Assembly: GCF_003003125.1 (NCBI RefSeq)
Contig: NZ_PVTZ01000003.1
Location: 62,001-126,000 of the forward strand
Direction of reading: 5' to 3'
DNA from: Laceyella sediminis
GTDB lineage: Bacteria; Bacillota; Bacilli; Thermoactinomycetales; Thermoactinomycetaceae
Length of the DNA: 64,000 nucleotides
Shown here in pieces: positions 4,671 through 46,434 of this stretch (position 1 is its first letter; each line of letters begins with the position of its first letter). The position numbers were made by a program, and so were the translations under genes. The notes below the pieces were generated by a model. It had not been told where the DNA came from. It was given only the letters and a program-made list of their open reading frames with translations, and did no database searches.

Positions 4671-5875
4671 ATCGCTTGGAAACCTCCACTCTATTTTGGA
4701 GCCGCATGCGCAGTTCTTGGACAAAGGCATTGCGGCTGATCCGCATCATCGCAGGCGGGGGAGGCACCCCGATCATCTTGGGAATCACCATCATCGCTTT
4801 CTCATTCGGATATAACCAATTGCTGGCTTGGTTGCCTGAATCGTTTCCGTTGGCACCCGTTTTGGCCGTCATGATCGGTCTTTTCCTGACCCACCACCGC
4901 ATCCGAACCTGGATTAAGCCGACTGACGCGGTGTTTCTGTTGCCCTTGGAACCTCATATGGGAAGATATTTCCGGGCGAGCTTGCTCTACACCGGCGCGG
5001 TGAAGCTCCTCCATTTGGGAGTGATCATGAGCATTTTGTATCCGTTATACCGCGCCAACCTAGGCACACTGGGAACCTATGTCGTTACTTGCTTTCTCTT
5101 GGCGGGAGTCCTTCTTCTCAATCTTGTGCAGGAATGGCAGGCGACGAGACTGACCGTCAACTCTGACGCCGGCGACTTGCGCTTATGGAAAATTTGCCGT
5201 TTTGGTTTGAACCTTCTGTTGGCCTACGACGCACTGGCATCCGAATGGTGGTTTGTGCTCTTGCCTCTCACCGCGCTGGCCATCTGGTGCTGGCAAGGGT
5301 TTCGCCTGATCCCACAAGCCCCCTATCCCTGGCAGCGTTTAAGTCGACTGGAGCAAGAAACCTTGGCCCGATATTACACCGTCGCCAATTGGTTCGTGGA
5401 TATGCCCCGCTACAAACGCCCATTGCGCCAACGAAAATGGTTAATCCGCCTCGTCAACCGCTTGATCCGCGACGATGCAGTTTACCCTTACCTCTATTGG
5501 CGCACATTGGTGAGGCAGAGCGATCTGTTGGCGATGTTTGCCCGCCTCTTGGCATGGGTAATCCTGCTCTCTTTCTGCGTGCCCCATCCGTGGGTCATCA
5601 CCCTGCTCACTCTCTTGGGCAACTGGATGTTTACTGTACAATTGCGGAACATTGAACATGCAGCGCATTACCCGGTCTTGTTTAAGCTCATGCCCCGACC
5701 AGCATCTGAGCGGTCACAAGCACTTCAGCAAATCGCACGGCTGTTATCAACCGCGTTTGCGTCGCTCATCGCACTGGTCGGCCTTTTGGTCGGTTGGCTG
5801 GACGGTAAGGGATTGGTCATCTATCTGATAATCAACGGCGCGGCGATTCTCTTCTTTAGCCGCACCAAAAGATAA
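4667..5875 (+). CDS. ecsB: EcsB-type ABC transporter membrane subunit
   Basis: Membrane partner of the preceding ATPase. The 402-residue product contains about eight to ten hydrophobic segments and matches the length and character of EcsB (N-terminal SWTKALRLIRIIAGG, then HHRIRTWIKPTDAVFLLPLE). The annotated start is GTG at 4667 in a GTGA overlap with ecsA. An alternative is ATG at 4706, which has GGAG just upstream; the sequence does not settle this. The substrate is unknown for the family. Two tandem hairpins follow the gene. Confidence 0.82.
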   Translation: MNRLETSTLFWSRMRSSWTKALRLIRIIAGGGGTPIILGITIIAFSFGYNQLLAWLPESFPLAPVLAVMIGLFLTHHRIRTWIKPTDAVFLLPLEPHMGRYFRASLLYTGAVKLLHLGVIMSILYPLYRANLGTLGTYVVTCFLLAGVLLLNLVQEWQATRLTVNSDAGDLRLWKICRFGLNLLLAYDALASEWWFVLLPLTALAIWCWQGFRLIPQAPYPWQRLSRLEQETLARYYTVANWFVDMPRYKRPLRQRKWLIRLVNRLIRDDAVYPYLYWRTLVRQSDLLAMFARLLAWVILLSFCVPHPWVITLLTLLGNWMFTVQLRNIEHAAHYPVLFKLMPRPASERSQALQQIARLLSTAFASLIALVGLLVGWLDGKGLVIYLIINGAAILFFSRTKR

Positions 5876-42978: not shown

Positions 42979-43518
42979 TCAAGATCGCTTCGGCGCAAGG
43001 TTGATATGGACGATGTCCTCCGTGATCATCTCTTTCAAAAACTCCAAGACATCATCCACAATGTAGACAATCCCGCTCACCTCTTCGCTGCTCCATACCT
43101 TTTTCAGCCGCTTTCCATAACTGTTCAGATCCATGTGAAGTGATTCTAGCGCGGCCAATTCCTCTGCTGAGATGATTTCTTGGTAGCGTTTTCGCTCGAT
43201 GTGCTTGGCCACTTCATCTTTCAGCCCGATCAAATCCCGGTAAGCGTCATCCACATCGGTAATCGCCAGGAAATTGCCGATAATTTCTTTAATCACCGTG
43301 CCCAAGTGGAAACTCGGCACCTCAATCCCCGAATTTTGTAGCGTATGCTCTAATTCCACCGCGCCCTGCAACGCCTTCATTGCCTTCTGTTTGTTCGCCT
43401 CGATGTACTTTAACGACCACTCCAGCTTTTCAATCACCTGCTCGATCCGTCGCGTCCAGTCCGTGATATCCACAGCGCATTTCTCTTGCAAGTGCATTTT
43501 GTGCAAATGGCGGATCAT
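42979..43518 (-). CDS. Helical hypothetical protein, 179 residues
   Basis: Not a family I recognise. The product is mainly charged helix with likely coiled-coil segments (RRIEQVIEKLEWSLKYIEA, GLKDEVAKHIERKRYQEI) and no membrane segment or signal peptide, so it is cytoplasmic. AAGGAGG is placed eight to nine bases before the ATG, an excellent ribosome binding site. A candidate promoter TATGAT with a TG extension and a Fur-box-like sequence lie 55-85 bases upstream. It sits between the tig promoter and the short-transcript locus, transcribed alone. Confidence 0.75.
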   Translation of the reverse strand: MIRHLHKMHLQEKCAVDITDWTRRIEQVIEKLEWSLKYIEANKQKAMKALQGAVELEHTLQNSGIEVPSFHLGTVIKEIIGNFLAITDVDDAYRDLIGLKDEVAKHIERKRYQEIISAEELAALESLHMDLNSYGKRLKKVWSSEEVSGIVYIVDDVLEFLKEMITEDIVHINLAPKRS

Positions 43519-43951: not shown

Positions 43952-43997
43952 AAACTAACATCGCATAGTTCAGAGCCGTTTTGTTGGCTCTTTTTTT
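43952..43997 (+). ncRNA. Possible very short (about 46-base) transcript
   Basis: Defined by the promoter at 43916-43945 and the terminator hairpin at 43972-43991. No ORF fits. It could be a small RNA, a truncated leader whose gene was lost, or an abortive unit that opposes read-through from the minus-strand pair. Prediction from signals only. Confidence 0.3.
43972..43997 (+). terminator. Terminator of the short plus-strand unit
   Basis: Stem AGAGCC/GGCTCT (43972-43991) with an eight-base loop, followed by T7. The U-run is on the plus strand, so it does not serve the minus-strand gene that ends at 43996. Confidence 0.8.
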
Positions 43998-44319
43998 ATT
44001 CCCTGCGTTCATAGCGACTCACCGTTATGGTCCCCACCTCAAGTTGCTGCACCTCGGCATGGTTAAATGGCGTACAACTCAACATTCGTCCCATCTCTTC
44101 CACATCATCAATCATCTGGGTACGCCAATAGCGGATCACACGTTTCTTTTGATCGTGACAGTGGGGACACTGATGAACTTGCCCCATTCTCGGCATGACC
44201 GTCTGGCAATGATGCCGCGTGACAAAACGGTCGCAGTCCTGGCAATATATACGGGACAAGTACAATCTCATCGTTTCGCAAAGCATTCCCTCACACCCAT
44301 TGTTAAGAGAATAGGTCAT
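43996..44319 (-). CDS. Small putative zinc-ribbon protein, unknown function
   Basis: A 107-residue product with two cysteine pairs, YCQDC and CPHCH, spaced about 25 residues, plus HHC between, giving a likely zinc ribbon. The remaining part is charged. Its start overlaps the preceding gene by 17 bases and has no ribosome binding site of its own, so translation is probably coupled; the internal ATG at 44286 is another possible start. I do not recognise the family. Both proteins of the pair are small and cytoplasmic. Confidence 0.6.
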   Translation of the reverse strand: MTYSLNNGCEGMLCETMRLYLSRIYCQDCDRFVTRHHCQTVMPRMGQVHQCPHCHDQKKRVIRYWRTQMIDDVEEMGRMLSCTPFNHAEVQQLEVGTITVSRYERRE

Positions 44320-44593
44320 AACAGCGGCCGGTCAACACATACTTGCCATCCTCCAACTCCGCACACACCAGATCGAGCATTGGAATCGCAATCTCACAAC
44401 CGGAGCGATCTTGCAAACGGACTACACTCAATTTGCTTGCCGGCTGATGTTGCACATCGCATGTTACCTCTCTCTCCTCCGCATCTGTCACTTCCACTTC
44501 CTCTGGAATCAGTTTTAATTCCATCAGTTGGCTTAACTCATAAAGGAAATGATTTACTTTATGGGCATTCCCCTTCACCGTGATCGATAGCAT
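44303..44593 (-). CDS. Small hypothetical protein coupled to the zinc-ribbon gene
   Basis: A 96-residue acidic protein (MLSITVKGNAHKVNHFLYEL start, then a Glu/Asp-rich segment and CEIAIPMLDLVCAELEDGKY) with no membrane segment. GGGAGGTGAAGGGAG just before the ATG makes it a strong translation start. It is the first of a two-gene unit, transcribed divergently from the HTH-TPR regulator out of an AT-rich region. No family is recognised; the alternating hydrophobic pattern suggests a small alpha/beta fold. Confidence 0.7.
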   Translation of the reverse strand: MLSITVKGNAHKVNHFLYELSQLMELKLIPEEVEVTDAEEREVTCDVQHQPASKLSVVRLQDRSGCEIAIPMLDLVCAELEDGKYVLTGRCYDLFS

Positions 44594-44639: not shown

Positions 44640-44735
44640 ATGAATGGCTTATCTATATAAATTGTAATATAATTTAATATATTCATACAATACAAATTTG
44701 ATTTAATATCATTCCTTTAAATCATTTCTTTTTTC
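44640..44735. promoter_or_regulatory. AT-rich divergent promoter region
   Basis: About 95 bases very rich in A and T with several TATAAT-like hexamers on both strands, between the minus-strand pair and the regulator gene at 44884. Its composition contrasts sharply with the flanking GC-rich DNA. Probable control region for one or both directions. Confidence 0.45.
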
Positions 44736-44883: not shown

Positions 44884-46224
44884 ATGGTATATGGACTTGA
44901 CCCGCATGTTGTTCGTTACGTCATGCGCAAAGTGAGAAAAGAAAGCGGCTATCGTCAAGAGGACATCGCCGACGCCACCATGTCGTACGGCACCATTTCC
45001 AACATTGAACGCGGTGTGGGGAATGTGGATGTGAAAACCGTAACCAAATACCTCACCAAACTGGGACTTAATGAAGCGACACTGAAAAATTTGGTCAAAA
45101 AAGAGCTGGAACGCATGGAAGAACTCTCTTTTCAGCTTCAGTTGATCGAAGCCATGCTGGACAACAACAAACTGGTAGAACATGCCGAGCAATTGCTCAA
45201 AAGCATTGCCATTGAACGCTACCACCCCCTCGCCCCTTTTTACACATACTTGGAGGGGCGGTGTTTCCACGCGAAAAAGGCATACACCAAAGCCGAGAAG
45301 CATTACAAACTGGCAATCCGCTTAAACAACCAATACAAATTGTGCTCCAGAGACAACATCGTCTCCATCTGTTACAACGAATTAAGCATCTGCCACTATG
45401 TACAAAACAACATGAGCAAAGCCCTCCATTACGTGGAAAAGGGGCTGGACGCATATTCGGAGCGCAACGGCGGGCGGGATGTGAAACACCCCATGCTATG
45501 TAACAAAGCGCTTTATCTCCTGAACATGACCCGGTTCGAAGCAGCCAAACAAATCGTCGATGAGTTGTGGGCCAAGCGCTTTCACATCAGAAGCAGTTTA
45601 TATACTTTGCTCAATATTTACAAATATCGGGCCATCCTGTTGCGCAGAATGGAAAAATACAGCGAAGCCATCGAGATCTGCAAAGAAGGCATCAACATCG
45701 GCATCTGCAATAAAATCCAAAACCGCTATCTTGATATCATGAACATTTTGGGCAGTGTTTATCTGCTTCAAAAACAATGCGACAAAGCTGAAAACTGCTT
45801 CCAAATGGTGCTCAATTATGATTACGAACGCAATCATCCCCGTAGCCATATTGACGCCTTGATCTATCTATCCATCATTTATTCCCATGAAAAAAATTGG
45901 CCCAAAGCGGAACAGCACATCGACAGCGCGCTTCAGATCGCCCGGCGTGCCACCCGAAACCAATTGTCCAAAGCATTGATTGTCGCCGGTAACATCTACG
46001 CGGCGCAACACAAATTTGCGGAAGCGATTCCCTGCTATCAGGAGGCTGAGCAAGCCGCGCTTCAGGCAAACCTGCCAAAGCGTCAGTACACCGCATTATT
46101 GCAGATGGCCAAGTGCTTTGATAGTATGAAGGCAGAAACCGAATGGAAAGTCACGATCAAAAAACTTCTCAATCTTCAGCAAAAATTGAATTTACAAAGT
46201 GAGGAGGAAATTTATGAGGTATGA
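44884..46224 (+). CDS. HTH-TPR transcriptional regulator (RRNPP/PlcR-NprR type)
   Basis: A 446-residue regulator with an N-terminal helix-turn-helix of the Xre class (residues 10-65, GYRQEDIADATMSYGTISN then VKTVTKYLTKL) and about nine tetratricopeptide repeats filling the rest (for example FAEAIPCYQEAEQAALQA). This arrangement is that of peptide-sensing regulators such as PlcR, NprR and AimR, whose TPR groove binds a signalling peptide. No enzymatic domain is present. The start follows GCGAGGG. The 3' end overlaps a 23-codon ORF by 11 bases, a layout also known for some receptor/peptide pairs. Confidence 0.85.
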   Translation: MVYGLDPHVVRYVMRKVRKESGYRQEDIADATMSYGTISNIERGVGNVDVKTVTKYLTKLGLNEATLKNLVKKELERMEELSFQLQLIEAMLDNNKLVEHAEQLLKSIAIERYHPLAPFYTYLEGRCFHAKKAYTKAEKHYKLAIRLNNQYKLCSRDNIVSICYNELSICHYVQNNMSKALHYVEKGLDAYSERNGGRDVKHPMLCNKALYLLNMTRFEAAKQIVDELWAKRFHIRSSLYTLLNIYKYRAILLRRMEKYSEAIEICKEGINIGICNKIQNRYLDIMNILGSVYLLQKQCDKAENCFQMVLNYDYERNHPRSHIDALIYLSIIYSHEKNWPKAEQHIDSALQIARRATRNQLSKALIVAGNIYAAQHKFAEAIPCYQEAEQAALQANLPKRQYTALLQMAKCFDSMKAETEWKVTIKKLLNLQQKLNLQSEEEIYEV

Positions 46225-46285
46225 CATTTCCGCCTTAGTGCGCCTGCCAAGAGAAGACAACGATGACGAGCCGGATCGCCAATAA
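46214..46285 (+). CDS. 23-residue ORF overlapping the regulator 3' end (possible cognate peptide)
   Basis: The ORF starts inside the regulator gene, with AGGAGG placed five to six bases before ATG, and ends before a perfect 12-base terminator. The product starts MRYDISALVRLPRED and ends in an acidic Asp/Glu-rich tail. It has no hydrophobic export signal, so it does not look like a classical secreted pheromone precursor; it might act inside the cell or be exported otherwise. The strong ribosome binding site, overlap and terminator favour a real gene. Confidence 0.5.
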   Translation: MRYDISALVRLPREDNDDEPDRQ

Positions 46286-46305
46286 AACAAATTTCTGTGA
46301 CCGTG

Positions 46306-46350
46306 AAGCCATTTTCCCACTCGGTTGTATGGAAAATGGCTTATGTTTAT
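46306..46350 (+). terminator. Terminator of the regulator/small ORF unit
   Basis: Perfect 12-base stem AAGCCATTTTCC/GGAAAATGGCTT, then ATGTTTATTTA, 20 bases after the small ORF. Confidence 0.85.
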
Positions 46351-46434
46351 TTACAGACAAAAAAACCGCCCTTTAGGCAGCTTATCCGTTGTTTGATATT
46401 GATTCATGCTGGCACAACACCGACATGATGCATT

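Follow-up and report, generated by a model that had tools for sequence, protein, structure and literature searches.

The 64,000-nucleotide stretch of Laceyella sediminis DNA analyzed here (the window) encodes an HTH-TPR regulator whose gene ends inside a small open reading frame (ORF), with a divergent gene upstream and a hairpin downstream (Table 1). Pfam places an HTH_3 domain at residues 14–64 of the regulator and finds several TPR matches in it. The end of the receptor gene overlaps the small ORF by 11 nt (46214–46224), and the Shine–Dalgarno (SD) sequence of the small ORF lies 6 nt before its start. Rereading of the sequence reproduced exactly the two ORFs and the 11-base overlap described in an earlier, sequence-only reading, and the AGGAGG that it had called near-perfect is in fact perfect. 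Its assignment of an RRNPP layout also held, given a 446-aa protein with HTH_3 and TPRs and a directly adjoining peptide gene with an 11-nt overlap. The hairpin pairs 46306–46317 with 46331–46342 around a 13-nt loop, and RNA from 46286 to 46360 folds at −23.8 kcal/mol (z = −4.06). The perfect 12-bp stem reported earlier thus stands, but the label of a perfect terminator is generous, because the U-tract is weak and interrupted and a terminator scan of the window did not list the 46306–46342 hairpin.

Table 1. Positions of the receptor–peptide locus and its flanking features within the window.
Feature	Position	Strand	Basis and remarks
179-aa protein, possibly also part of the regulated region	42979..43518	-	Beyond the divergent gene, same strand
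Divergent 96-aa gene, probable regulated target	44303..44593	-	Conserved divergently upstream of leaderless-pair receptors
Conserved intergenic element, candidate operator	44659..44710	-	52 bp; sigma-A-like promoter toward the divergent gene (by eye)
HTH-TPR receptor/regulator	44884..46224	+	446 aa; ORF and Pfam HTH_3, TPR_12/TPR_2
Shine–Dalgarno AGGAGG of the small ORF	46202..46207	+	Direct sequence; inside receptor codons (SEEEIYE); same codons in relatives
Leaderless peptide gene, 23 codons, MRYDISALVRLPREDNDDEPDRQ	46214..46285	+	ATG 46214, TAA 46285
Perfect 12-bp hairpin; probable terminator, U-tract weak	46306..46342	+	RNA fold

The window receptor is at least 99.8% identical to one protein of Laceyella sacchari DSM 43356 and has 19 matches in its own genome at E ≤ 0.001, fragments counted; phage and plasmid collections gave no match. 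The locus adjoins genes that we take, naming them by eye from their sequence, to be tig-clpP-clpX-like, and these neighbors point to a chromosomal setting. When the receptor family was searched as a profile against PDB sequences, generic TPR proteins ranked first and swamped the comparison with NprR, PlcR and AimR. About 40 kb away, positions 4688–5821 (+) of the window encode an EcsB-family ABC transporter membrane protein (PptB family), a possible peptide exporter.

Conservation of the small ORF was assessed in 23 genomes of Thermoactinomycetaceae, at the 3′ ends of 92 receptor ORFs. The window receptor falls in a clade with 100/100 tree support that spans eight genera at 31–58% identity, and nearly every receptor of this clade is accompanied by a short ORF whose start lies at −11 to −35 nt relative to the receptor stop. 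These overlapping ORFs are nearly always in the same frame, their SD lies inside the codons for ..SE(E/D)EIYE.., and the encoded peptides mostly end in G-D-D-D-(D/E), with M-G-D-D-D-D-T-E as a common form. An SD-preceded overlapping ORF is found at 35 of the 37 full-length clade receptors; at 29 of the 37 it also encodes an acidic motif (three consecutive Asp/Glu/Asn residues near the C-terminus), compared with 0.86 expected from dinucleotide shuffling of the downstream DNA. No ORF with the motif was found behind the receptors outside the clade (0/38), and a scan of 283 long-ORF ends from the same loci matched clade receptors exclusively. Typical peptides are MKSFSTNTHSFLLIGDDDDTE (locus L029), MSLNNNSFFYFGDDDDTDRC (L030), MESTKFYYQNISTNIMSQMGDDDDTEH (L045) and MKLLRLTVLRGEDDDQE (L002). 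The window peptide is a diverged member that has REDNDDEPD instead of GDDD, with the acidic C-terminus PREDNDDEPDRQ; its close relatives end in LGDEDETDRR (L027) and MGDDDTTE (L028). The peptide ORF is disrupted in the relative L046, and a few receptors have no clear peptide ORF.

The motif glycine is present in 34 of 34 aligned motif peptides, with T at the third base of its codon in only 47%. In the three Asp codons that follow, bases 1 and 2 are fixed at 94–100% across the 34 peptides and base 3 is T in ~60%. Fixed first and second bases with a free third base indicate that selection acts on the peptide. The comparative check proposed with the sequence-only reading came out in favor of the ORF: start region, SD, frame and C-terminal residues are kept behind related receptors in eight genera, and the motif changes mainly at third codon positions. 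The 23-codon gene appears, from these comparisons, to be a real and conserved partner peptide of the receptor.

In the sister families of the order, the same slot (mostly −14, −17 or −20) is again preceded by an SD of this kind and encodes propeptides of secreted type, 38–92 aa long. These have a hydrophobic N-terminus and C-terminal pheromone-like (G/S/T)(D/E/N)P-x-x motifs, some of them repeated up to about seven times, and the repeated motifs include SAFPGP, SEDPGMS and NPGEY. With secreted pheromone-like precursors occupying this slot in sister families, the option of an unrelated small protein, which the earlier reading had kept, is now unlikely. In Thermoactinomycetaceae a second leaderless group, with peptides ending in (D/E)PP, accompanies the acidic one. 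For peptides picked by hand and judged by a hydropathy criterion, the median of the maximum 12-residue hydropathy is 2.70 in the secreted propeptides of the sister families and 2.62 in a same-family secreted clade, compared with 0.11 in the acidic peptides and −0.95 in the (D/E)PP leaderless ones. The window peptide reaches −0.13 and has, by this measure, no Sec (or SHP-like) export signal; the missing signal remarked on before is thus borne out, as a trait that the entire clade shares rather than one peculiar to the window copy.

In the receptor tree, the acidic clade groups with receptors whose same-slot propeptides are of the Sec type, and its sister is the L124 receptor, with a secreted GDPIHT propeptide. 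Intermediate forms are GDDDEPP (L064, L072), GDDPNE (L075) and the leaderless MRKTTSEPIHT (L179, L191, L192). These sequence relationships indicate that the window pair shares descent with a pair of receptor and secreted propeptide. The receptor tree shows two separate signal losses, but a single origin is compatible with the data of a reduced set (AU test, p = 0.297). The tree being unrooted, secretion is taken as ancestral because it is widespread in the order and among known RRNPP systems. On the best reading, the window peptide descends from a secreted RRNPP pheromone precursor and is itself leaderless.

A separate receptor clade of the same family (L005, L022, L039, L081, L082, L084, L088, L091, L093) has kept secreted propeptides, in which (S)EPGGL or SQPGG is repeated, and a conserved neighborhood of a membrane protein, an acyltransferase and an aminotransferase. 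In sister family f2, the HTH-TPR receptors of L113 and L121 are paired with secreted propeptides that carry six to seven tandem SAFPGP-type repeats.

The receptors differ in charge along the same divide. The mean net charge of the TPR region is +1.8 in acidic-clade receptors and −4.8 in secreted-type receptors, and four basic residues have been gained in the former relative to the latter: K247 (basic in 94% vs 0%), R320 (94% vs 15%), R354 (83% vs 26%) and K363 (97% vs 7%). In the Pfam TPR_2 alignment, K363 corresponds to position 2; K247 falls at position 5 by the conserved Ala-20 spacing. We take both positions to face the ligand in TPRs generally. The AlphaFold2 single-sequence model of the receptor was too poor to use (mean pLDDT 48.6), so the placement of the basic residues in the groove was read from TPR register only. 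The charge shift that accompanies the acidic peptide is a clade-level correlation, not proof, and marks these residues as putative contacts. The TPRs of Hop and CHIP, in the eukaryotic chaperone system, bind acidic EEVD tails. By analogy, the acidic C-terminal peptide may be read by basic helix-A residues of the TPRs (K247, K363); the Hop/CHIP system is a eukaryotic chaperone system, however, and we claim no homology.

Divergently upstream of the receptor, a gene for a ~100-aa protein accompanies 44 of 56 leaderless loci but none of 48 secreted ones, in flanks of about 1.5 kb in many loci (Fisher p = 1e-18, an overstatement because the loci are related and not independent). The gene occurs in 22 of 23 genomes of Thermoactinomycetaceae, with up to 21 copies in one genome, compared with 0 of 19 others of the order, and was not found outside Thermoactinomycetaceae in a 300-genome sample of the class. 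In a prospective test on 20 previously unexamined copies, a divergent HTH-TPR receptor was present at 18; about 12 of these 18 have a clear short leaderless ORF, mostly of the (D/E)PP type and some of them tandem or repeated. Two tandem divergent genes stand upstream of one receptor at L045, L058, L060, L072 and L018. The protein has no confident match in Pfam, PHROG, NCBIfam or the PDB; 10 of 37 members match DUF3970 weakly (best 9e-5), and its AlphaFold2 single-sequence model (mean pLDDT < 50) was not used. The conserved 52-bp intergenic element lies at −215 to −234 of the receptor start in L001, L027, L028, L044 and L045, where a position weight matrix seeded without L044 scores 49–71 against a shuffled maximum of −2.7. 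An exact dyad search for an operator rose barely above background. The divergent gene is likely the regulated target of the receptor, and, most simply, the receptor would regulate the promoter between the two genes.

The 179-aa protein beyond the divergent gene is 29% identical (E = 6e-23) to a comparably placed protein upstream of the paralogue L002 (L161:1237-1731). A 107-aa Cys-rich, zinc-ribbon-like ORF at 43996–44319 (−), with sub-threshold Pfam matches only, overlaps the end of the divergent gene. At other loci (L153, which is the L045 locus, L156, L157, L161 and L162), radical SAM, PqqD/RRE-like or asparagine-synthetase-like (lasso-type) proteins and tiny ORFs were recognized by eye beyond the divergent gene. 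Such gene content suggests RiPP clusters under these regulators, and with radical-SAM, PqqD-like or lasso-type genes nearby, some of the pairs may control peptide natural products.

Based on these findings, we propose that the locus encodes a receptor–peptide pair of RRNPP layout whose propeptide has lost its Sec signal, and in which the acidic C-terminus of the peptide would bind the TPR domain, switch the HTH and control the divergent gene; we give this reading a probability of roughly 0.7. Receptor and peptide are encoded head to tail, with the SD of the peptide embedded in the last codons of the receptor. The acidic C-terminus would then bind the TPR groove via the clade-specific K247, R320, R354 and K363, and binding would switch the hold of the HTH on the promoter between the receptor and the divergent ~100-aa gene. 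This gene, and whatever follows it, would thereby be controlled. The proposal is supported by the conservation and frame of the ORF, its positional homology with secreted propeptides, the co-occurrence of the divergent gene and the charge change of the receptor; the peptide–receptor binding, the operator and the direction of regulation are inferred. Counting against it, a peptide that is never exported would be constantly visible to its receptor, and the reason for keeping the pair is left unexplained.

Where such a peptide would act can be read in two ways. It could be an intercellular signal that is exported by a non-Sec route, for instance through an EcsAB/PptAB-type ABC exporter, then trimmed and taken up again by Opp, a course of events that we regard as plausible though short of even odds. 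Intercellular action is on record for the leaderless peptides of RopB-type receptors (PMC10518010). Each paralogue in one genome has a distinct peptide sequence, which resembles private codes, and peptide copies stand in tandem after a single receptor at L029, L044, L181 and L183 or as an internal repeat in L186, which suggests trimming. The genome also encodes six oligopeptide-binding (Opp-type) proteins and one EcsB-family transporter, but such homologues are common and do not discriminate; moreover, no conserved exporter was seen adjoining the pairs, and the peptides are acidic, unlike the hydrophobic SHP or LCP peptides.

The action of the peptide could instead be confined to the producing cell, where it would serve as a co-translated ligand or brake, a former pheromone turned into a cofactor tied to receptor dosage; we entertain this with the odds tilted somewhat further against it. 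In favor of this view, the hydrophobic segment is lost throughout the clade and the peptide start sits inside receptor codons; at L010-L014, L016, L044, L181, L185 and L189 the peptide forms an in-frame fusion with the C-terminus of the receptor, an arrangement that would place ligand and receptor together. An always-present ligand, however, carries no obvious information, and the tandem and repeated copies are more easily explained by a trimmed pheromone.

That the ORF is a separate small protein, or a C-terminal receptor extension produced by frameshifting, with no ligand involved, is improbable. Nearly all acidic-clade ORFs do share one frame with respect to the receptor, and some loci carry fused versions. 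The small ORF nonetheless keeps its own SD and start even in fused loci: in L010, L011 and L014 an 8-nt SD match precedes the internal ATG, compared with 0 of 638 other internal ATGs, which we read as continued independent initiation of the peptide. Its position is homologous to that of the secreted propeptides, and stand-alone tandem copies occur further downstream (L029, L044). Least likely by far is that the conserved acidic codons form a non-coding DNA or RNA element. GAT-rich runs do resemble simple repeats, but the motif codons vary at the third base (GAT 114/GAC 52; GGT 19/GGC 12/GGA 6), and an Rfam search gave no match.

The (D/E)PP leaderless C-terminal extensions of L010, L011, L013, L014, L016, L181, L185 and L189, with their internal SD and ATG, are candidates for naturally tethered ligands. 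Broken or fragmentary receptor paralogues of the same genome are found at L016/L018 (G000:C14:23972-25254) and L019 (G000:C8:147121), and downstream of L019 an intact-looking MNVNLLTKTKRGGDDDDTSH ORF is still present.

The proposed leaderless RRNPP-type pair resembles the RRNPP/RRNPPA systems (PlcR-PapR, NprR-NprX, Rap-Phr, AimR-AimP) in its ~450-aa HTH-TPR regulator with a short ORF directly downstream, in the conserved residues at the C-terminus of that ORF and in the several paralogous pairs per genome. At 446 aa, the receptor is within the ~250–500 aa of RRNPP receptors, which contain TPRs and in most cases an HTH; the peptides differ in being 14–41 aa long, acidic, hydrophilic and free of a Sec signal. 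Leaderless communication peptides (LCP/SIP), mostly 8–10 aa and strongly hydrophobic, work with RopB-like Rgg receptors (PMC10518010, PMC6565748). Those of RopB reportedly leave the cell by a non-Sec route and are re-imported, and both how leaderless peptides arose and how they are exported are described as unknown (PMC10518010). Common to both is a short leaderless receptor-adjacent ORF with a strong SD and a cytoplasmic TPR-type receptor. In contrast to LCPs, the window peptide is 23 aa, hydrophilic and acidic, the clade peptides are acidic or x-PP, the peptide ORF overlaps the receptor gene and secreted relatives occupy the same slot; the NCBIfam matches of the window receptor include no Rgg family, which sets it apart from Rgg/RopB receptors.

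The AloR-AloP systems of Paenibacillus, compared here by description, comprise numerous HTH-TPR paralogues; a short ORF lies behind each of them, in some cases with partial overlap, and in the Alo12 clade the conserved short ORF has no hydrophobic signal (PMC7425212). They share with our pairs the paralogous HTH-TPR receptors and short downstream ORFs, leaderless in Alo12, but are reported essentially only in Paenibacillaceae, and neither an acidic motif nor a divergent partner gene is described for them in the text consulted (PMC7425212). Leaderless receptor-adjacent peptides thus have precedents in LCP (PMC10518010) and in Alo12 (PMC7425212). As far as the literature searched shows, what is new is the acidic family itself, its association with a family-specific divergent gene, and the presence of secreted relatives in the same slot. 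Published RRNPP surveys rely mainly on the secretion signal (PMC10075063, PMC9765709), so pairs of this kind would show up in them as receptors with no partner, or would be confined to the loosest output.

More broadly, we tentatively suggest, as a scenario with the odds against it, that Thermoactinomycetaceae turned a secreted pheromone system into an intracellular receptor–ligand module: the signal would have been lost, the peptide become acidic, the groove basic and a new divergent target acquired, giving a three-gene module specific to the family. Because leaderless and secreted forms share one slot within a single order, with intermediates, the loss of the signal, the change of the receptor and the gain of the target can be traced stepwise. 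These bacteria could therefore help to show how such signals evolve and whether the peptides still leave the cell.
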